IMG/VR virus record: IMGVR_UViG_3300045963_000018
Coordinates: 1-31,754 of that record
Source: a virus
Reading direction: 5' to 3' (one strand)
DNA: 31,754 nucleotides
A program made the position numbers and the translations under genes. The notes beneath the pieces are model-generated. The model saw only the letters and a list, made by a program, of their open reading frames with translations. It had not been told where the DNA came from and searched no databases. Of this stretch, positions 20,574-31,754 are shown piece after piece; the stretch's first letter is position 1; each line of letters starts with the position of its first letter.

Positions 20574-21113
20574 TTAGTAAGGAACGTCATCCGTTTCTAA
20601 ATCATTAGGTTGCTTAAACAAATCTTCTGTTTGATACACGAAATCAACAAATTGTTGTGCAACATCTAGGATTTCATTTACTTTAAATCCCTGACCAGCA
20701 CCATCTTGCTGCTTACAATACTCAATTGCATTACTAATAGAACTTTGTCGAATAATGTAAAGCTGCTTAACCTTGCGTTCTTCAGGAGTTTCGTATGTAC
20801 TCACGTTCGTTCGCGCAGAGCCTACGGCACCCGCCTTCACAGATACCCCTGCGTCAGCAGCGGCCGACGTGGTACTCTCCACGGAGGCCCATTGATTGAA
20901 GCCCTTATCATTCTTAGTAACTTCTACATTATACTCTTCACCAGGCTTCATGGTGCGAACCTTGGCAAAAATACCAGGGTTGCTAAACGACATAATGTTC
21001 TGTGTGCGGTTTTGTCCATTAAAGGAATAAACTACAGCAGCCTTGTCATACTTGTTCTTACCATTACGAACTTCTTCAATGTTGACTTCAACAACCTTAA
21101 TCTTGAACGGCAT
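20574..21113 (-). CDS. Single-stranded DNA-binding protein
   Basis: The protein has 179 residues. The first ~75 form an OB-like beta-rich domain (FKIKVVEVNIEEVR..., with FNGQNRTQNIMSF). A disordered Ala/Ser/Gly linker follows (~80-110), then a helical region. The C-terminus is acidic and ends in an aromatic residue (DLETDDVPY), as in SSB tails that recruit replication proteins. It follows the polymerase with a 17-base overlap. The linker DNA is locally GC-rich (~20800-20890). Identification rests on the pattern and on operon position. Confidence 0.78.
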   Translation of the reverse strand: MPFKIKVVEVNIEEVRNGKNKYDKAAVVYSFNGQNRTQNIMSFSNPGIFAKVRTMKPGEEYNVEVTKNDKGFNQWASVESTTSAAADAGVSVKAGAVGSARTNVSTYETPEERKVKQLYIIRQSSISNAIEYCKQQDGAGQGFKVNEILDVAQQFVDFVYQTEDLFKQPNDLETDDVPY

Positions 21114-21840
21114 ATTCTTTCATGTCCTTTTTGTTGGGGCCAACCTGAACTTCACAGGTTAGCGGAAGAGAAAAATCGTAACCAAAATGCTTACGACATA
21201 AATCTGGTACACTCTCTACAGCTTTTTTCAAGAGCATACTAATAGTATAACAGTTTTCTGCTGGTGTGTCAATTACTAAACTGTCGTGGATGGTTCCTAC
21301 AAACTTATATTCCAGGCCGGATTCTTTAAGGAGTCTTACTGCTTCAATTCTGGCAAGCATAACCAAGTCTGCTCCGAATCCCTGTACTGGGTAATTCTTG
21401 ATGCAGGTAAGGGGCCACTTCCAGGCTCCGCCATCCCAGGACTGGCGGAATTCTGGAGTAAAGGCATAAAAGCGTCCAGAAGGGATTGTAAGGTACCCAT
21501 CACGCTTAACGATGTCGAGTAGTTTGTCATGCCATTGTTTAATCCCTGAGTACTTGGTGTAGTAGTCGTCAATTACTTGTTGCCAGAACTTTTGAGAAGA
21601 GCTAACTCCAGTGAAATCGGGATCGTTAGCATAGCTGTACGCGCTTCCTCCATAGATGAGTCTGAATTTAAAAATCTTGGCAACCAGTCGTCCTGGCTTT
21701 CCTTCTCCAAGTCTGAAGGCAACTCTATTTGTGTCATGTATATCTACCTTATCAATAATTTCTTTGCGTAATACTTTGTCGCCGGACAGTTCCGCAGCGA
21801 CAACAACCTCAAGACCTTTTACATCACAGTTAATTAGCAT
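21097..21840 (-). CDS. Family A DNA polymerase, polymerase-domain fragment (palm/fingers)
   Basis: The protein has 247 residues. Motif A is at the extreme N-terminus (CDVKGLEVVVAAELS, D6), motif B is RLVAKIFKFRLIYGG (R51, K55, F59, Y63, G64), and motif C is VGTIHDSLVID. All catalytic motifs are intact. The start ATG overlaps the upstream 3'-5' exonuclease/thumb ORF by 11 bases (ATGCTAATTAA), in the +1 frame. No Shine-Dalgarno lies within 20 bases; the nearest, GAGG, is ~25 upstream. It may be a separate subunit made by coupled reinitiation, part of a +1 frameshift product, or the result of an indel. Confidence 0.9.
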   Translation of the reverse strand: MLINCDVKGLEVVVAAELSGDKVLRKEIIDKVDIHDTNRVAFRLGEGKPGRLVAKIFKFRLIYGGSAYSYANDPDFTGVSSSQKFWQQVIDDYYTKYSGIKQWHDKLLDIVKRDGYLTIPSGRFYAFTPEFRQSWDGGAWKWPLTCIKNYPVQGFGADLVMLARIEAVRLLKESGLEYKFVGTIHDSLVIDTPAENCYTISMLLKKAVESVPDLCRKHFGYDFSLPLTCEVQVGPNKKDMKEYAVQD

Positions 21841-23035
21841 AACGTGAGATAAAAAACTGCTCTACCTCAGGAGGTTGGTTCTGCATGTTTGGTGCAGAAC
21901 TACTTAGACGGCCAGTGACTGCAACATTTTGGTTAAATTGCCCATGAATCAAATTGTCTGTCCATTGCTTGTCGTTAAATTGTTTAAAAAGGCTCTCCAG
22001 CATTTCACAAACCTTCTGTGTTTCACTGCGCTTTTGTAGCGTAGTGAGGACGTTCTTAGCAGTCTTATTTCCCTTTAAGGAAGCTAGAGTCGGGGCATCC
22101 GTCTGATAAATCCTCGTGGGCACCGTTTTGTCCTTAGTCTTTTTAGTCTCAGTGCCGTCAATCGGGCTGAATAATGTAGGAAAAACAATCTTTTCGATAT
22201 GCCACGAATTCTTCGTATATTGCTCACCCCTTTTAGGGCCACTTTTATACACCGCCTGTGCGGGAATGGCATAATCAAACTCTATCGTACCGCCATATAA
22301 GAAGCAACTGAGATGATCGCCAGAATCCCAATTAAAAGTTCCGTGGGAAATAGTAGGAAGAAGGCTGGCAAGTTGTAGCTCCAATAAACCAACTTGTTCT
22401 TTACTTGCTGTAAGATATTTTCCAGCCTTGTCAGAGTCAAATAAAAGACCATTATGCTCAATATTTGCCAATACCTTGAGGTCTTCCCCCAAGAGGTATA
22501 CAAGTCGTTTTTGTTCATCGCTTAAAAGCTCCTGCTGAACCAGGAAGAGTTTCTCAGTTTGTATAACGTCCCATTCATTGTACTCTTGAAGAATTGGAAT
22601 TGGAATATCATCTGTTTGAGTGCCTGCTTCCCAAAGTTCTTTAACGAGATCAATTTTAGTTTCAAGTCCATATTTAATTAAACATTCATTAAGAGAAATA
22701 AATTGGGCCTTCTGGCCGGTGTAGATGTGTTCTGCTAGTTGGCAGTCCCACACAGGATTACTTAGCCCACTAGGAAATAGCCAATGGTAATCAAATTTAA
22801 AATTAAAACCAACACAGACACTGGTATGGCCCAATCCTCGTAGGAATGAAGTGAAGTCAGGATCAGAAAAGTATTTGAAAGTAACAGCAGAGCCGTTGTG
22901 TTTGATAGCATATGATACTAGTTTATTTCTAGGGTCAAAGGGATGGCCCTTGTTATATGTTTGGGTTTCACAGTCCAAAACGGTGTAGGGTGCTTCCGTG
23001 TGGGATTCAAACCCACTACTGTCCGTGTTATCCAC
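21830..23035 (-). CDS. Family A DNA polymerase, 3'-5' exonuclease and thumb fragment
   Basis: The protein has 401 residues. Proofreading motifs are complete: Exo I VLDCET (D21, E23), Exo II NFKFD (N78, D82), Exo III YNEWD (Y152, D156). The C-terminal part is the thumb and pre-palm region and ends TGRLSSSAPNMQNQPP...FFISRYAN, just before where motif A should follow; that motif begins the next ORF in the +1 frame. The start is GTG 23035 with AAGGA at 23044-23048, eight bases upstream. Both lie in a tRNA-like fold (22992-23062). Together with 21097-21840 it gives a full-length T7-like polymerase. Confidence 0.9.
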   Translation of the reverse strand: MDNTDSSGFESHTEAPYTVLDCETQTYNKGHPFDPRNKLVSYAIKHNGSAVTFKYFSDPDFTSFLRGLGHTSVCVGFNFKFDYHWLFPSGLSNPVWDCQLAEHIYTGQKAQFISLNECLIKYGLETKIDLVKELWEAGTQTDDIPIPILQEYNEWDVIQTEKLFLVQQELLSDEQKRLVYLLGEDLKVLANIEHNGLLFDSDKAGKYLTASKEQVGLLELQLASLLPTISHGTFNWDSGDHLSCFLYGGTIEFDYAIPAQAVYKSGPKRGEQYTKNSWHIEKIVFPTLFSPIDGTETKKTKDKTVPTRIYQTDAPTLASLKGNKTAKNVLTTLQKRSETQKVCEMLESLFKQFNDKQWTDNLIHGQFNQNVAVTGRLSSSAPNMQNQPPEVEQFFISRYAN

Positions 23036-23218: not shown

Positions 23219-24460
23219 TCAGTCAAAGTGTATTACATCCCTATAGCGTGCTACAGTGGGTTCTATGAGTACTTCAAATCGTCCATGACGGAGCTCTTGT
23301 CTGCTGTCAGCATCCCCAAGTAGTTTGTTCTTAGAAATATTCAAGAACCTAGCTGATGCTAGCTCTTGATCGGCAGCCTTACCGATGCCAAGAATGAAGT
23401 CCGCTTCTGCTTGCTTAGCTGTCTTAGCATTTGCCACATGCTCCATAGTGAGATACCGAACACCCTCTGCATGGCCGTCAGCTTGGCAAACTCCAAGGGA
23501 GGCATGACTTCCCTTAGCCAATTCTCTTGCCCATTGGTAAATGCTTCCAAGTCGCAAGTCTTCTCGGTCATTAGCAAATCCTTTAATTTTATCAATTTGG
23601 TCGTATACTACCAAGGATGGATTCAGTTGCTCTACAAGTCGTTCAACATCGCGCCGGCCAATTGTCGCGCTGTCAAACAATCGAAACTTAGTACCAACTT
23701 GCTCCTTAAATTCATCACGAAACCGCTTGACATTGGAAAGAATTACATCACTACTGACACCGAAGTAGGCACAATAAACACGAAGCATTACTTTCCATCC
23801 GTCTTCCTCGTTATTGAGCCAGCATACTGTTGCTGTGCTCTGGGTAAGGAATTGCGTAATCTCACTTGCAAGGAAGGTAGTTTTGCCGGTCTCGGGGCGC
23901 GCAAAGATGAATCCAAAATCTCCCTTGCGGAGACTTCCCAAGCTTTTATTAAGGCAGTCAAGTCTCCATCGAAGTCCTTGATCGTAAACATGATTTGATA
24001 GGAGTTCTTCAAGATCGGTGTTAACCTCGTTAATTGAGAAATGATCGACCTGTTCTGCTTTAGGAGACTCAGCTAAAAACTGGTCTAAGTCGTCCTGTTC
24101 CTTCAACCCCTGACTAACCTGAAAGGCTAGCTCAGACAGCTTTAAAGCACGCTTGCGGGCAATGGTTTGCTTAACAATGTCCAGACCTACATCTGGTGTA
24201 ATTGAAGCCTCTGAAAGGATTTTGAATAGAGATGAATATATTTCATTGTCTACATTGGGATAGCTTGCATAGAAGCTTGCTATAAGGTCATCAATAGTTA
24301 AGTCATGTTGATACTTTTCATGTAGAGATATTAGTGTTTGATATAGAAAACTTAGTTCTCTATGTGTTTCTTTAAGGTATTTTAAATCTATATATTCTTT
24401 ATATAATATATAAGATTCTTTATTAAATAATACCTTTATTAAAAGTAGTTCATATTGTAT
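23219..24460 (-). CDS. DnaB-like replicative helicase with unusual or missing start codon
   Basis: The RecA-like core has Walker A FARPETGKTTFL, Walker B-like LVVYDQIDKI and a helicase motif region AKGSHASLGVCQADG. It unwinds the fork with the polymerase and the separate primase (25622). The first ATG/GTG/TTG in frame is TTG 24106, which would give 295 residues and remove the N-terminal domain. The frame stays open for 118 more codons through very AT-rich DNA and reads like that domain (KEYIDLKYL..., LHEKYQHDLTIDDLIASFYASYP). It begins beside AAAGGAG (24468-24474), with ATA at 24460 best spaced (7 bases), then ATA 24463 and ATT 24466. ATG 24453 is out of frame and stops after four codons, unless a one-base shift occurs. 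The 413-residue length fits the family. Confidence 0.85.
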   Translation of the reverse strand: MQYELLLIKVLFNKESYILYKEYIDLKYLKETHRELSFLYQTLISLHEKYQHDLTIDDLIASFYASYPNVDNEIYSSLFKILSEASITPDVGLDIVKQTIARKRALKLSELAFQVSQGLKEQDDLDQFLAESPKAEQVDHFSINEVNTDLEELLSNHVYDQGLRWRLDCLNKSLGSLRKGDFGFIFARPETGKTTFLASEITQFLTQSTATVCWLNNEEDGWKVMLRVYCAYFGVSSDVILSNVKRFRDEFKEQVGTKFRLFDSATIGRRDVERLVEQLNPSLVVYDQIDKIKGFANDREDLRLGSIYQWARELAKGSHASLGVCQADGHAEGVRYLTMEHVANAKTAKQAEADFILGIGKAADQELASARFLNISKNKLLGDADSRQELRHGRFEVLIEPTVARYRDVIHFD

Positions 24461-24512: not shown

Positions 24513-24804
24513 GTCTTTTATTAAATCCTTCCACTTCCTTCTTTGGAAGCTGTGTAAGCGGAGCACATTGTACAGCCCGTCCTTCTTCATCCACAATGAA
24601 TCCTCCAACATTATAGCACATGCTATGATAAAGTTCAACTCCTTCTGTAGTTCCTACTTTTTTGCCTTGATAGTAACCAGCGCCTGTGAAGATTGCTAGC
24701 ACAGATAGGGCAAGAAGGGCCTTAATCGGGCGATAGAGCCTGTTTCCAGACCACCGAGCTAGGGTGGTAGCCATAGCCCACCTGAGGGCGTTAAATTGGC
24801 TCAT
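24499..24804 (-). CDS. Single-span membrane protein, function unknown
   Basis: The protein has 101 residues. A basic N-terminus (RWSGNRLYRPIK) precedes a hydrophobic helix at ~29-46 (ALLALSVLAIFTGAGYY), so the C-terminal half, with two Cys, probably faces the periplasm. The start overlaps the thyX stop by four bases (ATGA). It is the only clear membrane protein in the window; a holin or host-takeover role is possible but not shown. The helicase promoter begins inside its last codons. Confidence 0.7.
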   Translation of the reverse strand: MSQFNALRWAMATTLARWSGNRLYRPIKALLALSVLAIFTGAGYYQGKKVGTTEGVELYHSMCYNVGGFIVDEEGRAVQCAPLTQLPKKEVEGFNKRLDNT

Positions 24805-25484
24805 TTCAACAAAGCCTGCAAAGCATTAGGGAAAGAAGGAAGTAATTGGTTGTACATTTCTTGTGCAATATCCTGTGTTTCTTTCTGCGTGTGAGGATCT
24901 AAACGCAACTTAAAGATGCGGCTCCATGCAGCAAGGGAGCCTGTCCACCACCACTCTGTCATCATGTTTTGTGGAAGAATCATACGGGCTTGTTCAGGGG
25001 CTACACCACCCTCTAGGAGCATGTTATATGTCATTAGACTTTCTTTAACAGAATTATGAAAATGTATAGAAAGCTCATTAGCAAATACTCCTGTAACTAC
25101 CCCATCAGATCCTTGCTTAGCATTTACCGGCTTACCTCGCCATCCATCCGGATAGAAAAACTCTGGTTCGTCATCGACATAGCGCCGACTAACTTCATTC
25201 CACACAAGTCCCACTTGATGCTTTCCAAGCTGACGTGCTACAAAAATAGGAGCTTTAATTACAAAGGTAGCATTGACGTGCCCAAATGGTGTCCAATGTC
25301 CATGAGAAGCAAGATAATTAATTAGATTAATATCCTTTCCAGCTAGAGCATCAAATTCACAATCTAAGTGGATATGATGGTTCCAAGTGCTTTCTTTATG
25401 AAAACTTACACGAGCAGCATTGACAATGTCAAGTTCTGTACCATCTACTTTACGTAGAGTTACTTCACAGTTACTTATCTTCAT
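24801..25484 (-). CDS. thyX: Flavin-dependent thymidylate synthase
   Basis: The protein has 227 residues and makes dTMP from dUMP using methylene-tetrahydrofolate, FAD and NADPH. N-terminal IVNAARVSF and HWTPFGHV are typical. The ThyX signature appears as KHQVGLVWNEVSRRYV (88-103), with KHQ where most ThyX have RHR, and S99-R100-R101 in place. C-terminal EQARMILPQNMMTEWWWTGSLAAW is also characteristic. ATG 25484 is preferred over TTG 25490 because GAGG lies six bases upstream. It overlaps the small gene before it by 14 bases. Confidence 0.93.
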   Translation of the reverse strand: MKISNCEVTLRKVDGTELDIVNAARVSFHKESTWNHHIHLDCEFDALAGKDINLINYLASHGHWTPFGHVNATFVIKAPIFVARQLGKHQVGLVWNEVSRRYVDDEPEFFYPDGWRGKPVNAKQGSDGVVTGVFANELSIHFHNSVKESLMTYNMLLEGGVAPEQARMILPQNMMTEWWWTGSLAAWSRIFKLRLDPHTQKETQDIAQEMYNQLLPSFPNALQALLK

Positions 25485-25650
25485 TAACAACCTCTACTTC
25501 TGTACTAGCACTCAAGTGAATAGGTTCGCCGTTTAGATAACAAAGAGAATACATACCATCAATATGCTTAAAATCAATCAAATATTTTATTTCACTTTCT
25601 GAATCTGTATAAATAATCTTGCTATTCCTGGGAACTTCGTAGAGCTTCAT
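25471..25650 (-). CDS. Small phage protein (59 aa), function unknown
   Basis: ATG 25650 to TAA 25471. The product begins MKLYEVPRNSKI, has LIDFKHIDGMYSLC in the middle and ends IHLSASTEVEVV.., a pattern seen in small proteins beside phage primase and replication genes. It overlaps primase by 29 bases and thyX by 14, which supports expression as part of the operon. No function is known. Confidence 0.78.
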   Translation of the reverse strand: MKLYEVPRNSKIIYTDSESEIKYLIDFKHIDGMYSLCYLNGEPIHLSASTEVEVVNEDK

Positions 25651-26359
25651 TAATTTCCTTTATGGGTAATTCTTTAGGGTCATTCTTGGTAGATATAAAC
25701 TGAACTGGAAGCCCTGTCAAGCCCTGTAACCAAGCTGCTTTACGTGTGATCGTCCCTCTTTGATCCGCATCCAGCCACAACACAATAGGTTTTTGCTGTG
25801 CCATTAAATATTTTATATGACAGGGATGTATCTGTGTACCAAATAGAGGTAATGTGGGCACGACTTGTCCGACCTTGTGGGAGGAAATCCAATCTTCTAC
25901 TAGAACTATTATCGAAGAGGGGGCCAAGGCCAGGAAATTGTGGATAGGGAAGGCTTGCTTGTGGCTGTCTCCCCAGACATACCATTTCCTTTGTTTGTCC
26001 TTCCCCACATACCGTCCAATAGAGAAGGCTGTTGGGTTTCCAGGCAAGCTGGGGTTTCCCACGGTGAATATGAGGCGCTCTTGTCCAGGAGAATAGCCAA
26101 CTGAGTCTTTCCAATAGCTCCAGGGTAGTCCATATTGCAAGAGCCATTTGAAGGCTGATGCTGGAACTTCTCTGGTGAAGTCACTAGGTAGCATAGCTTT
26201 TGAGACATCATTCTTTACCTCAGGTTTTACATAGTGTTTAGGAAACTCATGATAGCTACATGAGAAACAGTGGTAATGACCATTATTAAAATTAACAAGG
26301 TTGTCCCCTGCCCTATCATTACCAATAGAGCGGCAACGAGGACATGGGGAAGTTTTCAT
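25622..26359 (-). CDS. DNA primase (zinc-binding and Toprim domains)
   Basis: The protein has 245 residues. Cys pairs C6/C9 and C31/C34 form the zinc ribbon that reads template. The Toprim domain shows IIVLVEDWISS (E155) and VLWLDADQRG (D197, D199). It makes RNA primers and, unlike T7 gp4, is not fused to the helicase, which is encoded separately at 23219. The ATG overlaps the zinc-ribbon gene stop by four bases (ATGA). Confidence 0.87.
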   Translation of the reverse strand: MKTSPCPRCRSIGNDRAGDNLVNFNNGHYHCFSCSYHEFPKHYVKPEVKNDVSKAMLPSDFTREVPASAFKWLLQYGLPWSYWKDSVGYSPGQERLIFTVGNPSLPGNPTAFSIGRYVGKDKQRKWYVWGDSHKQAFPIHNFLALAPSSIIVLVEDWISSHKVGQVVPTLPLFGTQIHPCHIKYLMAQQKPIVLWLDADQRGTITRKAAWLQGLTGLPVQFISTKNDPKELPIKEINEALRSSQE

Positions 26360-26565
26360 TCTTCTTCGTCGTTACTAGGGTCCATTAGAAATTCAATATC
26401 CCCATCCTCCACATTATCAAATGGATTGAGGTCTTCTCGTCCAATGGTGGCAATAGGAATATCTTTCAGACATTTCTGGCAGATGTCAACAAATTCATTA
26501 TTGTCAGCACGACGTAGTGTACTTTCATAATCAGAAAGAAATCGGTTACAACATTGACAACGCAT
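26356..26565 (-). CDS. Small zinc-ribbon-like protein
   Basis: The protein has 69 residues. CQCC near the start and CQKC at ~32-35 form two Cys pairs, consistent with a zinc ribbon. The rest is acidic, ending SNDEEE. The MRCQCC...LSDYE start matches a phage small-protein family of unknown function. ATG 26565 is taken; GTG 26568 is an alternative that adds one residue. It lies between the ATP-grasp and primase genes. Confidence 0.75.
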   Translation of the reverse strand: MRCQCCNRFLSDYESTLRRADNNEFVDICQKCLKDIPIATIGREDLNPFDNVEDGDIEFLMDPSNDEEE

Positions 26566-27293
26566 CACTTCACCCTTTTAGTCAAATTAAAAGCCTTAAT
26601 CAAGGCTTCACTATATCGCTGCAAAGTTGTACCCATTAGCCCAGGCCGAGAATTCACTTCAAGAACAAAACACTGATTACGTTTCTCATTGTAGACAATA
26701 TCGACAGCACCATATTGATAACCCACAGCAGCAACTGCTGCAATAGCGAGGCTATGAATGCCGTCAGGAGGAAGAATAGCATCCCGAGTGTAGCAATAGC
26801 CGTTAGCACAATTACGAACACGTGTGTCCCTATCCCCGTCAAATCCACGCTTCTTTTTCTTTTGTTGAATGTCAATTACTTCTCCATTGAAGACATGGAC
26901 TCGATATTCTGCTTTCTTTGGGATGTATTCAGTATAAAGTGGAGCCCTCGGATATATATCTGAGGACGACTCAAACTCGATAATGCCTCGCCCATTAGTG
27001 GAGTTAATGAGGGTTCTAGCAAAGAGAGTTTTGCAATTAAGATTTCTTGCTCCTCCGATAGTGACAGCAGCCTTTGGACAAGAGATATTGTTTTGTTGGA
27101 ATTTGACAAACTGCTCTATCTTATTAAGAGTTTTAGGAACCACTTGAAAAGCCGCCCGTGATCGACCGCCCTTAAGTTTTTTAATTGTACTACGCCTATA
27201 AATCTGATTAACTACTTCTTCTCGAAGCTGCTGCTGTAGTGCCCGTGCAAATTTACTTGCTACAGGGTTTACAACAATATCAAGTTTCTTCAT
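26565..27293 (-). CDS. ATP-grasp ligase
   Basis: The protein has 242 residues, a compact RimK-like ATP-grasp domain. FARTLINSTNGRGI (91-104) is the ATP loop, LYTEYIPKKAEYRVHVFNGEVID (119-141) holds the nucleotide-gripping strands, and GAVDIVY (195-201) and FVLEVNSRPGL (209-219, E212 and N214) are metal-binding. Such enzymes activate a carboxylate by phosphorylation and join it to an amine. AAGGAA precedes ATG. It is the downstream end of the amide-ligase island. Confidence 0.88.
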   Translation of the reverse strand: MKKLDIVVNPVASKFARALQQQLREEVVNQIYRRSTIKKLKGGRSRAAFQVVPKTLNKIEQFVKFQQNNISCPKAAVTIGGARNLNCKTLFARTLINSTNGRGIIEFESSSDIYPRAPLYTEYIPKKAEYRVHVFNGEVIDIQQKKKKRGFDGDRDTRVRNCANGYCYTRDAILPPDGIHSLAIAAVAAVGYQYGAVDIVYNEKRNQCFVLEVNSRPGLMGTTLQRYSEALIKAFNLTKRVK

Positions 27294-27302
27294 ATAAGTT
27301 CC

Positions 27303-28580
27303 TTAATGTGGAATGAGTGTCTCAGTGTAAAAAGGTTTTACATTTGTCATCAAGCAGGTAACAACCATATGCCCAGGAGACGCTGTAAGAGTTCTAACTG
27401 CTACAATGTTTGCAGTATACCACTCATTTTCTAGATAGTCAAGCATTTGTTCTGATGTTTTGTTATAGACAAACCAGTGAAATGTAACCCTATCCATCTT
27501 ACCATCTGGCGTAGTAGTCGATGCTGACATATGCCATGTAGTACAGTTTGGATGTTTATTGGCAGGAATATAGTCATTAAGTTCAATAAAGATTTCCTTG
27601 GAATGATCTCCAGTGCGAAGAGTTTCAGCAATCTCTAGTGCATCACCAATAGACAAGAATAGTTCAGGACTTTCAGAAGCAATAATTTCAATAAGTGCCC
27701 TATCTACCTGTTCTGCTTGAGGACGAGTATATGGAAATCTAGTTACATTCTCATGGTGTCCCTGATACGAAACAGTTTCGTCCACCATGTAATCCCAGTC
27801 AGGTAGGTCAACTCGGCGGTTATCGGTGTAGACGTTTGTTGCATTGGAGTGACAAAAGGGAGCCTCATAAGCACACTGGAGCTTTTCATCCCCCCGTTCC
27901 CAAGAATGAGCCTTCAATGAAAGTGTTACAAGAACATTAGCTTCTAGCATATAGCTTTGCTGTGTGTATTTCAAGCCATGCCTATCTGCGGCATTCTCCA
28001 TAAATCCGGGCTCACTAGCCCACATCAATCCACCACTAGTAAGCTCAAGCAACCATAGGGGCCGCTCAGGATTACGAATCATATGTAGCTTACCAGTCTC
28101 AGCGTTAAACCACACCAAAGCATATGCTGCATTAATTTTCTTAAGGGCTGTGGTAATATCCTCATTCTCTGAGATAACATGAGCTACTGCCTCAGTGTCA
28201 ACCTCAGTGTCTTTATGATGCTTATGGCTGCCCTTGTATGTGCCATTTTGCACCAAAACAATTTTATCATCCACTACAAAGGGATGGGCATTTTTGTCTG
28301 TGATCGTCCCCCGTGTAGCTGCCCTGTTATGCCCCACTGCAAACACTCCGGCCCTAATTAGGGCCTGTTTATATTCATTAAATTCAGGACGACGAATAAA
28401 AGAGCCACCATCAGATGCTTCCTTCCAAATCCCCACATTTTTATGCTTGTCTACGCCAAAGACACCAGTAGAATCCCACCCCCGAAGGGTATCAAAGAAT
28501 AGCATGTCAGCAAAAGCATCAACCTCTTGCTTACTAAAACCACCCATGTATGCCGAAGCAAAGCCCACAATTCCACACAT
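27303..28580 (-). CDS. Class II glutamine amidotransferase (Ntn hydrolase)
   Basis: The protein has 425 residues. The catalytic Cys is residue 2 (MCGIVGF), exposed after Met removal. Glutamine-site motifs are complete: RGWDSTG (33-39), GHNRAATRG (83-91), NAHPF (98-102), QNGTY (111-115), DTEAV (128-132). It releases ammonia from glutamine. The C-terminal ~200 residues are not a sugar isomerase or asparagine synthetase domain that I recognise, so the ammonia acceptor is probably supplied by partner ligases. Start and amidoligase stop overlap by one base (TAATG). Confidence 0.9.
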   Translation of the reverse strand: MCGIVGFASAYMGGFSKQEVDAFADMLFFDTLRGWDSTGVFGVDKHKNVGIWKEASDGGSFIRRPEFNEYKQALIRAGVFAVGHNRAATRGTITDKNAHPFVVDDKIVLVQNGTYKGSHKHHKDTEVDTEAVAHVISENEDITTALKKINAAYALVWFNAETGKLHMIRNPERPLWLLELTSGGLMWASEPGFMENAADRHGLKYTQQSYMLEANVLVTLSLKAHSWERGDEKLQCAYEAPFCHSNATNVYTDNRRVDLPDWDYMVDETVSYQGHHENVTRFPYTRPQAEQVDRALIEIIASESPELFLSIGDALEIAETLRTGDHSKEIFIELNDYIPANKHPNCTTWHMSASTTTPDGKMDRVTFHWFVYNKTSEQMLDYLENEWYTANIVAVRTLTASPGHMVVTCLMTNVKPFYTETLIPH

Positions 28581-29575
28581 TATTCTTCCTCCTCTTCTTC
28601 ATTCTCTTCATTAGCTTCTGCAAGCCTATCAAGTTCTTCATTGTCAAGCTCCCTTGGTACTGGACCTTCTTCAAAATATTCTAAAGGTGCTTCACGAGCA
28701 AAACGATAACGATTAATTCGCGGGTCAAGAGCATTATCTAGCCAGGAATGGGAAATACTCTCAGAACTTTTCATTAATGCAAACTTAATATCAAGAACAC
28801 CAAGTTCAAGTAGTTGCTCAAATTGTGGAATTTTCAAAAATTCTATTGTGTGTTCCTCAAATACATTAAATAGAATGTTCTGATATAGAGAATTGGTATT
28901 GAGACTACAAATCTCTTCTTTAATTTCGTTAAGAGTTTTAATGCGGGCATATCGGTAAATTGCCCCAATCAAACGACACCATAGAAGGATAAGGGGGACA
29001 TTCCCATGTCCATGCATATGTCGCCACTCAATTGTGCCTTGAGTAAACAAAGGAAGTAGATTAAGTCCTGTATATTTTTGCCATCTCTTAAATCTCATAA
29101 TGTCCTCAGGATTATTTAGAATAGAGTATGTCAAATTAGTTTGATGCCACGGAACACAAAAGATATTGTCTTTCCTGCCATTCCCTACAAACTCATACAA
29201 TAGGCGCTCGAACACTTGGTATAGGATGATGATCGACTGTACTTGTTCAATCTCCAAATCTTGACAGTTGGTGTGCACATGAATGGAACACCGATCAGAA
29301 TAGTTTTCCTTGGAAACATTTGCAAGCTTAAAGAATTTATCTAGACAGTATGCTAGAGTGCTATAAGGCATTGGGGCAGTGATGAATTCACGCCCATTAT
29401 TACGAAGAGAACCATCCTCAGTAACAGTAATGCCCCAACTTTGCCAGTCCTGTGTACGTTCAATCTCAAGTTCTAGTCCATAAAATAATGCTGGATCAGG
29501 ACATAGCAGCAATGGGGCTGATTTAAGAGACTTAATCCCTACAGGAGCCAAACCAAGAAGTTCTTTAATATTCAT
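28580..29575 (-). CDS. Amidoligase (Amidoligase_2-type, glutamine synthetase-like fold)
   Basis: The protein has 331 residues. Motifs in order are YGLELEIE (32-39), TEDGSL..NGREFITAPM (52-69), SIHVHTN (97-103) and GTIEWRHMHGHGN (180-192), the metal and ATP residues of the COOH-NH2 ligase superfamily. It should form an amide bond from a carboxylate and an amine with ATP. The C-terminus is a Glu-rich tail. AGGTGA precedes ATG, and 11 bases overlap the preceding gene (ATGAATATTAA). Substrate unknown. Confidence 0.87.
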   Translation of the reverse strand: MNIKELLGLAPVGIKSLKSAPLLLCPDPALFYGLELEIERTQDWQSWGITVTEDGSLRNNGREFITAPMPYSTLAYCLDKFFKLANVSKENYSDRCSIHVHTNCQDLEIEQVQSIIILYQVFERLLYEFVGNGRKDNIFCVPWHQTNLTYSILNNPEDIMRFKRWQKYTGLNLLPLFTQGTIEWRHMHGHGNVPLILLWCRLIGAIYRYARIKTLNEIKEEICSLNTNSLYQNILFNVFEEHTIEFLKIPQFEQLLELGVLDIKFALMKSSESISHSWLDNALDPRINRYRFAREAPLEYFEEGPVPRELDNEELDRLAEANEENEEEEEE

Positions 29576-30137
29576 AAGTCACCTCGTATGAATCACCATC
29601 TCGACGAATAAAATCAGAAAGTTCTTGTCTAAGAAGAGGAGTAGTGAGTTTAATTTTATTTCCTTCTACAACACCAATCTGTTTATCATAGAAGAACACC
29701 TTAGATTCTGTCACCAAGAAAAGATGATGGAAATGTTTTCCAACAGTGGGCATTGGGGGACTGATAAAGACATCATAAAGGATTTCTAAAGAAATATCCA
29801 GGTGTTGAAGACCATTATATGGATGATCTTTAGTACAGCTAGTATTAGATTTACTAATACCACGATTGTATTGCTTCACGGGAGTCCGTTGTAGAAGTAC
29901 CCATCCTTCTCGTGTAAAGAACCAGCCACGAGTAATAGGAAGGAACTCAAACTCAACACCAACGTCCCAATAAACAAAGAAATTCTTACCTGCAATAGTG
30001 TCAAAATGTACCTTATCATCAACTTTAGAAATATAGCAAAGCGTTTTCTTTTTCTGAGCACCTAGCAAATAGCCATATGTTCGTTGATAGCGCTGGCGAA
30101 AATCATTCACACAGTCACTAGTGAGGGATTCAATCAT
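29565..30137 (-). CDS. Unknown protein of the amide-ligase island
   Basis: The protein has 190 residues, with mixed alpha/beta character and many aromatics (GKNFFVYWDVGVEFEFL, RGWFFTREGWVLLQRTP). I recognise no family and no transmembrane helix. Overlaps of 1 and 11 bases with the two ligase genes on either side show it belongs to the same functional unit; it could be an acceptor, scaffold or regulator of the ligases. Confidence 0.75.
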   Translation of the reverse strand: MIESLTSDCVNDFRQRYQRTYGYLLGAQKKKTLCYISKVDDKVHFDTIAGKNFFVYWDVGVEFEFLPITRGWFFTREGWVLLQRTPVKQYNRGISKSNTSCTKDHPYNGLQHLDISLEILYDVFISPPMPTVGKHFHHLFLVTESKVFFYDKQIGVVEGNKIKLTTPLLRQELSDFIRRDGDSYEVTYEY

Positions 30138-30925
30138 TACACCACCATAGGAATGTTAAATTTATTAATCAATTCTTGTGCAACTTGTTTGTTATTACCA
30201 TTAATTGCTTCGAGAATTTGGGTCTGTTCTTTGTCAACGTCAAGGGACATTGATTCCAATGCCAGTTGTGTATTTTCCCAAATCCAGCGAGTCAACTTAG
30301 GAGTAAAAATCCAATAGTTACTCAGCACACGATATTCAAAACCATAAGGCTTAGGACGGAATGCACCAGCCTTCCCATAGAGTTGCTTACGAAGATCACC
30401 AGAATCCATCAATGTACTGGGCACACCAAGGAACAAGTCCATAAGCTTAACTGCTTTGGCCTTATCGGAGATATGATCGACCCCAACATGGACATGCCCC
30501 CCACAGCTACGCAAGGATGCATCAGACGCGGCCGGACGAGGATTAATAGAATTAGTCCAAGCATTAAAGTCGGGCTCACATCCGAACTCCTTAGCCATGG
30601 GATCAAGGAGTTGATCTTCCGGAAAGTAGGCCGCACTGAGAGTGCTAAAGGCCAGCCCTTTCTCTGCTACCATACCACCAAGATGAGCCATAGCAAGGCC
30701 AATGTTCTTAACAAGAGCATCAGCACTCTTGCTGGCAGGAATGTTGTACTCCAACGCAACATTGTCTTCCTGGACAGCAAATCCCTTACCAATTGGAAGA
30801 GGAAGTGGGTCGTATTTCGATCCCCCAATCTTGCCAATGGAGGAAATCAAATTAGCAGAATTAAATGCATCAACCAAAAAAATCTCTGGATCAGCACCAA
30901 TAGACAGCTTCAGTTTCTTGCTCAT
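30137..30925 (-). CDS. phiEco32-type COOH-NH2 ligase (type 2)
   Basis: The protein has 262 residues. GADPEIF (10-16), GKIGGSK (31-37), QEDNVALEYNIP (52-63), GCEPDF.AW (115-123), CGGHVHVG (141-148) and YGFEYRVLSN (194-203) together match the phage phiEco32-like COOH-NH2 ligase family, a glutamine synthetase-fold ATP-dependent amide ligase. It is the clearest indicator of the island's chemistry. AAGGA precedes ATG at 7 bases. It overlaps the next gene by one base (TAATG). Confidence 0.9.
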   Translation of the reverse strand: MSKKLKLSIGADPEIFLVDAFNSANLISSIGKIGGSKYDPLPLPIGKGFAVQEDNVALEYNIPASKSADALVKNIGLAMAHLGGMVAEKGLAFSTLSAAYFPEDQLLDPMAKEFGCEPDFNAWTNSINPRPAASDASLRSCGGHVHVGVDHISDKAKAVKLMDLFLGVPSTLMDSGDLRKQLYGKAGAFRPKPYGFEYRVLSNYWIFTPKLTRWIWENTQLALESMSLDVDKEQTQILEAINGNNKQVAQELINKFNIPMVV

Positions 30926-30934
30926 ACTATGTCC

Positions 30935-31183
30935 TTACGATTTACAGATGATAATGAAAGACGAGGGGGCGGCGCGCTCTTGATGAGCCTTAGTATAGAA
31001 ATTTGGCCCCTGATAAACAATCTTATCAAATAAACTAACACTCTTAAGCCAGTCTTTCCAATCACTGGTGCGAGAAAGACTAATCGAGAAAATATGGTAT
31101 TCATTTGGCCGAAGATGGTCTATAAAATATTGCTTGTTTCTTGGCGCATGATACCATTGTATTTCGTGTTGATGAACTTTCAT
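30935..31183 (-). CDS. Small protein of the amide-ligase island, unknown
   Basis: The protein has 82 residues: HQHEIQWYHAPRNKQYFIDHLRPNEYHIF, then FDKIVYQGPNFYTKAHQERAAPSSFIIICKS. It is His/Tyr-rich at the N-terminus. The pattern recurs in phages with similar ligase genes, but no activity is known to me. It lies nine bases before the COOH-NH2 ligase. Confidence 0.7.
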   Translation of the reverse strand: MKVHQHEIQWYHAPRNKQYFIDHLRPNEYHIFSISLSRTSDWKDWLKSVSLFDKIVYQGPNFYTKAHQERAAPSSFIIICKS

Positions 31184-31192
31184 ACTGTACTC

Positions 31193-31522
31193 TCAATCCC
31201 AAAGATGGTTACGATTTCTATAGAAGTCATCTGAGAGCACATATCGAAAAGCAATTGTGTCTCTACCCATTTTAAAAATATCCACCTGTGTGTGGGGGAA
31301 TTCTTTAATTTCTTCGCGCTTCGGATTTACTATAACCGTAACCCCAATTATATTATTAAGATTATTAAATTCTTCCATTGAGGTAACATACTGCGCTCCA
31401 CAATTACCAGTAAAGTGGTAGTATGGATTATGCCTAAGTTCTCCAATGTAACTACCCCAACTAAAATTATGGGTTGGAGTCTTTTCCTTGGTAAACCCCA
31501 CTTGAATATCTTTAATAGGCAT
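31193..31522 (-). CDS. Unknown protein beside the class I amidotransferase
   Basis: The protein has 109 residues with Cys in HFTGNCGAQYVTSMEEF and a beta-rich middle (IIGVTVIVNP). No family recognised. The start ATG overlaps the amidotransferase stop by 11 bases (ATGCCTATTAA) and has GGAG seven bases upstream, so the two are co-translated. Confidence 0.7.
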   Translation of the reverse strand: MPIKDIQVGFTKEKTPTHNFSWGSYIGELRHNPYYHFTGNCGAQYVTSMEEFNNLNNIIGVTVIVNPKREEIKEFPHTQVDIFKMGRDTIAFRYVLSDDFYRNRNHLWD

Positions 31523-31754
31523 TTACAGTCTCCAAATGTTTGCTCATAAACTCTTCAATATATTTAGTACTTGGAATGTCTCGCTCCAAATATTCTGGAT
31601 GCCATTGAACAGCAAATCCATTAATTTCATTAAAGAAAATAAACTCGGGCTCCTGGTTATGATCGACCTGCTTATTCCCATCGATATAGATATTGCTACG
31701 CAATTCTTCAAGAGGAACTTCAGCAATTATCTCATGAACAACAGGTTCATTTGT
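31512..31754 (-). CDS. Class I glutamine amidotransferase, C-terminal part (cut by window edge)
   Basis: Eighty residues are visible. FAVQWHPEYL carries the His and Glu of the Cys-His-Glu triad of class I (gamma-glutamyl hydrolase / PuuD-like) amidotransferases; the Cys lies beyond the window. The frame is open to the edge at 31754. It would cleave gamma-glutamyl amides or feed ammonia to the ligases. Identification of the subfamily needs the missing N-terminus. Confidence 0.78.
   Translation of the reverse strand, partial: TNEPVVHEIIAEVPLEELRSNIYIDGNKQVDHNQEPEFIFFNEINGFAVQWHPEYLERDIPSTKYIEEFMSKHLETVNAY

Follow-up and report, generated by a model that had tools for sequence, protein, structure and literature searches.

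A phage amide-bond cassette beside the replication genes that may build and remove a gamma-glutamyl bond

What would a phage make with three ATP-dependent ligases and a glutamine amidotransferase encoded in one operon? This question is raised by the 31,754-base linear virus record IMGVR_UViG_3300045963_000018 (IMG/VR), which was analysed over its whole length and is referred to below as the window. The original prediction for this DNA described an operon for amide or peptide bonds with two amidotransferases, three ligases and three interleaved proteins, all serving one pathway. We find that the operon is an amide-bond cassette of the phiEco32/LUZ24/RIO-1 type, which has already been described, and that its core chemistry is likely the making and removing of a gamma-glutamyl bond.

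All eight open reading frames (ORFs) of the operon lie on the minus strand where they had been placed. Profile searches confirmed the COOH-NH2 ligase (CNL), the Amidoligase_2 ligase (AM2), the class II amidotransferase (GT2) and the RimK-like ATP-grasp ligase (GRASP), which are adjacent on one strand, and the 190-aa protein encoded among them is here called U190:

31512..31754, minus strand: C-terminal 80 amino acids (aa) of 221 of a Peptidase_C26, class I-fold gamma-glutamyl hydrolase-type protein, here C26 (PF07722)
31193..31522, minus strand: 109-aa ORF within the operon (blastp, no relatives outside this virus)
30935..31183, minus strand: 82-aa ORF within the operon (blastp, one weak relative)
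30137..30925, minus strand: CNL, COOH-NH2 ligase of predicted glutamine synthetase (GS) fold, 262 aa (PF14395, phrog_3815, structural model)
29565..30137, minus strand: U190, conserved core protein of 190 aa without a Pfam family (hidden Markov model (HMM) and structure searches)
28580..29575, minus strand: AM2, Amidoligase_2 ligase, 331 aa (PF12224, phrog_7469)
27303..28580, minus strand: GT2, class II (Ntn) glutamine amidotransferase with Cys2, 425 aa (GATase_6, phrog_4736)
26565..27293, minus strand: GRASP, RimK-like ATP-grasp ligase, 242 aa (PF08443, phrog_2599)

The genes are tightly packed: CNL and U190 have 1 base in common, as do AM2 and GT2, U190 and AM2 overlap by 11 bp, the gap between GT2 and GRASP is 9 bp, and GRASP overlaps the next gene by 4 bp.

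The protein at the edge of the window was completed from contig L002 (IMGVR_UViG_3300046018_000035), which matches the window at 100% identity across 11,615 bp and encodes all 221 aa at L002:8749-9414. At full length the protein scores 68.7 bits against Peptidase_C26 (E=8.3e-19), above the curated cut-off of 20.5, and less against GATase (33 bits, E=6e-8), and 93-94 of 94 relatives retain its catalytic triad of Cys90, His193 and Glu195. The closest PDB chains are 3fij, 7d4r, 7d50 and 7d53, the last three of which we take to be SpuA of P. aeruginosa, a gamma-glutamyl-polyamine hydrolase. Hydrolases of gamma-glutamylated polyamines and folates belong to the Peptidase_C26 family. Judging from the bit score, the PDB neighbours and the kept triad, the edge protein is therefore more likely to be of the gamma-glutamyl hydrolase type than an ammonia donor. 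A class I amidotransferase supplying ammonia was considered and rejected on the higher C26 score and on the finding that a gamma-glutamyl cyclotransferase (GGCT) stands in for this protein in other phages. Thus, the three ATP-dependent ligases and the glutamine-dependent class II enzyme of the original prediction hold, and its second amidotransferase gives way to a C26 protein.

The exchange of C26 for GGCT was followed in 61 whole records (11 GenBank phages and 50 others) searched for both enzymes. One or the other, or both, was present in all 61, counting two C26 genes cut at contig ends. The 11 GenBank phages have no C26 anywhere in their genomes and all carry GGCT, ten of them at the locus and SE131 elsewhere in its genome. 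Among the 50 further records, C26 was found in 46 and GGCT in 15. Four gave no C26 match: GGCT is present in two of them, and in the other two (L066 and L103) the C26 gene is cut by the contig end. The window virus follows the same pattern, with C26 at the window edge and complete in L002, a near-identical longer contig in which GGCT was not found. As background, single-query tblastn against 50,697 phage records matched GGCT in 152 and C26 in 66, many of which are themselves cassette phages. That two unrelated enzymes, C26 and GGCT, interchange beside a GS-fold ligase suggests that a gamma-glutamyl bond is built and later removed.

Evidence for the ligase half of this chemistry comes foremost from CNL, which matches PF14395 (E=8.9e-13) and phrog_3815 (E=1.4e-74) and in which D12, E14, D54, E59, H144, H146, R179, R190, E197 and R199 are invariant in 65 sequences. 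Its AlphaFold model (pLDDT 96.3) matches glutamine synthetases in Foldseek with E down to 8e-6. In VIA-align, where rows within 1 Z count as tied, the model scored Z of 14.2 with GS, 14.1 with 1tt4 (predicted glutathione synthase, Salmonella), 13.9 with YbdK (1r8g), 13.7 with the bifunctional glutathione synthetase, and 13.3 with both plant GCL and Dop. As modelled, CNL thus appears to combine the catalytic fold of the GS-type gamma-carboxylate ligases with their conserved acidic and histidine metal ligands. The GS-fold enzymes that it matches act on a gamma-carboxylate or gamma-carboxamide. AM2 matches PF12224 (E=7e-6) and phrog_7469 (E=6e-30), and G33, E35, E37, E39, E63, H99, H101, R134, E183 and R185 are invariant in 18 sequences. 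A sequence search for solved structures gave no relatives of either ligase.

Of the remaining two enzymes, GT2 matches GATase_6 (E=3e-12) and phrog_4736 (E=7e-58), and its profile matches PurF and GlmS with E down to 1e-20; C2 is at least 90% conserved, and R86, N112, G113 and D128 are invariant. GRASP reaches 22.4 bits against RimK PF08443 (E=1e-4; cut-off 21) and matches phrog_2599 (E=2e-41), and its profile retrieves alpha-L-glutamate ligase 7qyr (E=4e-10) and RimK 5zct/4iwx. It has K58, E129, R131, K145, D198, E212 and N214 invariant, of which D198, E212 and N214 are the ATP-grasp Asp and ExN residues of a RimK-like enzyme. Placement in the R2K clade was rejected, the R2K_2 profile giving 19 bits, below its cut-off of 26.2. 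With 16-20 relatives aligned per enzyme family, the catalytic motifs proved intact as originally claimed, Cys2 of GT2 included. GRASP is also strongly basic, with a net charge of +21 vs a median of +10 in relatives, and most other cassette enzymes differ in this respect; the charge may hint at an acidic substrate. The highest 19-residue Kyte-Doolittle mean was 1.67, and no segment is hydrophobic enough for a membrane protein.

To place the cassette among phages, we sampled 21 annotated regions and 90 viral-contig loci (a few contigs fetched twice) with an iterated HMM scan, leaving 108 distinct loci after an exclusion list, among which one contig may still be represented by a few overlapping pieces. 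CNL was present in 108 of these, GT2 in 106, AM2 in 105, GRASP in 103, U190 in 98 and C26 in 91, with GGCT inside the fetched stretch in 28. By tblastn, relatives occur in 312 of the 50,697 phage records for CNL, in 296 for AM2, in 313 for GT2 and in 251 for GRASP. The commonest order is C26, CNL, U190, AM2, GT2, GRASP, primase and DnaB helicase, and the window has the same order plus an extra ThyX gene. GT2, C26 and GRASP shift place in other lineages and the set remains together, a persistence through rearrangement that argues strongly for one pathway. The pairwise distances calculated for the cassette genes are correlated among themselves at r 0.46-0.76 and, less closely, with those of the helicase at r 0.18-0.43. 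Judged from these sequences, the cassette is a genuine, conserved, co-inherited operon with its catalytic residues intact. A single operon and pathway had been predicted, and scattering of the genes in related phages had been named as the observation that would speak against it; the neighbourhood is kept in the 108 loci. In most relatives the replication genes follow directly downstream of the cassette, and in the window the cassette adjoins primase and helicase in the replication arm.

One of the three interleaved proteins assigned to the pathway, U190, is a conserved cassette component: its HMM hits fall nearly always between CNL and AM2, and proteins in this slot are homologous through chains of significant blastp hits as well as through the HMM. 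It has no Pfam family, and its members match only the unnamed PHROGs 11055 and 4877, one stray hit apart. The U190 model (pLDDT 94.3) retrieved in a structure search the slot proteins of Vp_R1 and CW02 and one from RIO-1, and residues 7-68 weakly resemble Sm/SH3-like barrels (best Foldseek E 0.06; Z up to 6.2). The fold search with this confident model matched no enzyme, which excludes nothing. The most conserved feature is a basic motif, R-x-P-x-R-Q-W-x-R-G. Because a catalytic signature is absent, we infer that U190 is a non-catalytic subunit. The other two interleaved ORFs fared differently in blastp among 113 loci: that at 31193 has no relative outside this virus, and that at 30935 has a single weak one (E=6e-4, L045). 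Since relatives in other cassettes are absent, this hit apart, both orphans are probably outside the pathway. Separately, nine loci (L018, L019, L073, L097, L098, L102, L106, L107 and L112), from crAss-like, cyanobacterial and larger phages, have a second cassette arrangement with no detectable U190 and no neighbouring primase gene.

The cassette is less novel than first claimed, since published work already contains both it and a cell-wall hypothesis (PMC5498523, PMC6256558, PMC10580990, PMC11945000). A seven-gene 'peptidoglycan modification cassette' was listed for HP1, RIO-1, phiEco32, 7-11, PA11, tf, MR299-2, LUZ24, PaP3 and CW02 (PMC5498523), seven ORFs for peptide bonds were noted in phiM6 (PMC6256558), and the cassette was also described in UFV-P2 (PMC3890496), U17 (PMC11945000) and OM43 phages (PMC10580990). 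With the HP1/RIO-1 version, the window shares the ligases, the amidotransferase, a gamma-glutamyl-cleaving enzyme, the replication neighbours and U190 in the same slot; HP1, however, has GGCT and no C26, whereas the window virus has C26. LUZ24, PaP3, tf and UFV-P2 (Bruynoghevirus, Krylovvirus) have CNL, U190, AM2, GT2 and GRASP by primase and helicase as in the window, but their GGCT lies downstream of GRASP and their primase and helicase are fused, whereas C26 of the window is upstream of CNL. That upstream position is shared by ctOsX528 (MW202697), in which C26 directly precedes CNL, followed by U190, AM2, GT2 and GRASP, at about 43% identity to the window for CNL and 33% for AM2.

In PaP3, ORFs 32-48, the cassette region, peak at 10-30 min alongside replication genes (PMC4707531); by UFV-P2 and tf annotation, ORF40 is the primase/helicase, and ORFs 43, 47 and 48 are GRASP, U190 and CNL. 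Mass spectrometry of SU10 detected an ATP-grasp protein, a glutamine amidotransferase and a YtfP/UPF0131 (GGCT-type) protein in phage that was PEG-concentrated, not CsCl-purified (PMC4281155). The PaP3 and SU10 data therefore indicate that cassette proteins are made during infection.

Considering that the gene set, its conservation, the catalytic residues and a gamma-glutamyl-cleaving enzyme in each whole record examined are observed, together with the folds found in the models, we put the probability at about one half that the cassette specifies a soluble, intracellular, replication-phase pathway with a temporary gamma-glutamyl handle. The reactions that we infer, and their order, substrate and benefit, would be as follows. 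CNL, probably with the related AM2, would use ATP to couple an amine to glutamate through its gamma-carboxyl, or to a similar carboxylate; GT2 would release ammonia from glutamine for an amidation; and GRASP would add an amino acid through a normal amide. The gamma-glutamyl group would then be taken off by C26 here and by GGCT elsewhere, acting as a temporary handle by analogy with PuuA/PuuD and BtrJ/BtrG, and U190 would serve as a non-catalytic core subunit. Most likely the target would be a small amine or peptide of the cytoplasm, which might be a precursor of the cell envelope. In the Puu pathway (gamma-glutamyl-putrescine) and in butirosin biosynthesis, a GS-fold or ATP-grasp ligase attaches a removable gamma-glutamyl group, and a C26 or GGCT enzyme removes it. 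The phage cassette differs from both in having no oxidoreductase or carrier protein.

Several points weigh against this pathway. GS-fold and Amidoligase_2 enzymes need not act on glutamate, C26 and GGCT might have unrelated roles, the parallels with PuuA/PuuD and butirosin are analogies, and U190 is missing or undetected in the nine loci named above. It is also conceivable, as a tentative alternative, that the product is a small non-ribosomal gamma-glutamyl peptide or amide, a phage natural product, from which C26 or GGCT would remove the handle and for which U190 would likewise be core.

The published interpretation, that the stem peptide of cytoplasmic wall precursors is amidated or extended and other phages are thereby barred by superinfection exclusion, is possible, though we regard it as doubtful. 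A wall role has been proposed in the papers on HP1, phiM6, OM43 phages and U17, with the idea credited there to Iyer and colleagues and to Hardies 2013; in the four papers cited above for the hypothesis, it is a prediction and never a result. It agrees with peptidoglycan amidation by class II amidotransferases in bacteria, as reported for AsnB of Listeria, and with the cassette hosts named in phage records, which are all bacteria; no archaeal record was found among 11 genome-contig hits. Expression with the replication genes and the constant primase/helicase linkage do not, however, point to the wall, the cassette has no wall-specific domain, and it is common to hosts with very different envelopes.

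Protein tagging, in which the RimK-like ligase and the amidoligases would put Glu/Gln or peptide tags on a host or phage protein (ribosomal or replication), is unlikely: although RimK and alpha-L-glutamate ligases are the closest relatives of GRASP with known structures and peptide tagging has been predicted for other phage ATP-grasp enzymes (PMC4431377), RimK acts alone. Two GS-type ligases, the amidotransferase and the gamma-glutamyl-cleaving enzyme would be left unexplained, and no target gene travels with the cassette, U190 possibly excepted. Slightly less probable still is a role in amine or cofactor metabolism, by nitrogen salvage or an altered gamma-glutamylated cofactor (polyamine, folate or glutathione-like) feeding replication. 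Such a role would suit the polyamine and folate hydrolases of the C26 family, the 7d4r/7d50/7d53 neighbours and the middle expression together with replication genes. ThyX near the cassette is in its favour too, but this was seen in only 5 of 108 loci; moreover, none of the Puu-pathway oxidase, aminotransferase or dehydrogenase enzymes was seen, and three ligases with an amidotransferase suggest synthesis over breakdown. DNA or nucleotide hypermodification as a shield from restriction, to which the constant company of primase, helicase and DNA polymerase and the marked restriction-modification resistance, without a known pathway, of the cassette-carrying (LAMP) Gordonclarkvirinae (PMC11990801) might point, is highly improbable, since the cassette has no known base-activating enzyme, tf virion DNA is cut by RsaI, HpaI, EcoRV, SmaI and HaeIII and its blunt-end fragments were cloned (PMC3517423), LUZ24-like DNAs are cut by EcoRI, HindIII, Sau3A and AluI (PMC3634792), and DNA of the Bruynoghevirus U17 is cut by 11 of 16 enzymes (PMC11945000). 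Complete base replacement is thus unlikely in tf, the LUZ24-like phages and U17; sparse modification, or modification only in Kuravirus, may occur.

Downstream of the cassette, the window contains the following features:

26356-26568, minus strand: small acidic Zn-ribbon protein, between the GRASP and primase genes
25622..26359, minus strand: primase (phrog_47, E=1e-20)
24801-25490, minus strand: ThyX, flavin-dependent thymidylate synthase, between primase and helicase
23219-24106: DnaB helicase
21097-23035, minus strand: family A DNA polymerase in two overlapping ORFs (401 and 247 aa)

The Zn-ribbon protein is common in this lineage, with a variable tail, and in many other phages the class II amidotransferase carries a C-terminal Zn-ribbon motif, either in place of the small protein or in addition to it. 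A LysW-type amino-group carrier was rejected for it, as relatives have no fixed C-terminal Glu and lie up to 2 kb from the ligase. The polymerase is likewise in two pieces, often with a gap, in L003, L042, L045, L046 and L111, and because these five relatives are also split, we regard this as a lineage trait, not a sequencing error. Elsewhere, L019, L020 and L021 carry genes for nicotinate/nicotinamide phosphoribosyltransferase and PRPP synthetase (NAD salvage) within ~8 kb of the cassette. Cassette-type ligases also occur in metagenome-assembled genomes (L113-L123), including two from candidate-phyla bacteria (Dojkabacteria, Patescibacteria), where they may belong to phage contigs or prophages. 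PADLOC gave no defence-system hits.

The cassette is borne by ~300 sequenced phages with hosts as diverse as Escherichia, Pseudomonas, Vibrio and Rhizobium, and by crAss-like and cyanobacterial phages. To what was known of it, our analysis adds the rule that C26 or GGCT is present, the predicted GS fold, U190 as a core member and the exclusion of two interleaved ORFs. The restriction digests steer effort away from bulk DNA modification, and U190 belongs in any reconstitution. With the C26-or-GGCT rule and the match to the GS fold, what had been a vague 'peptide-bond cassette' becomes a gamma-glutamyl pathway that can be tested.

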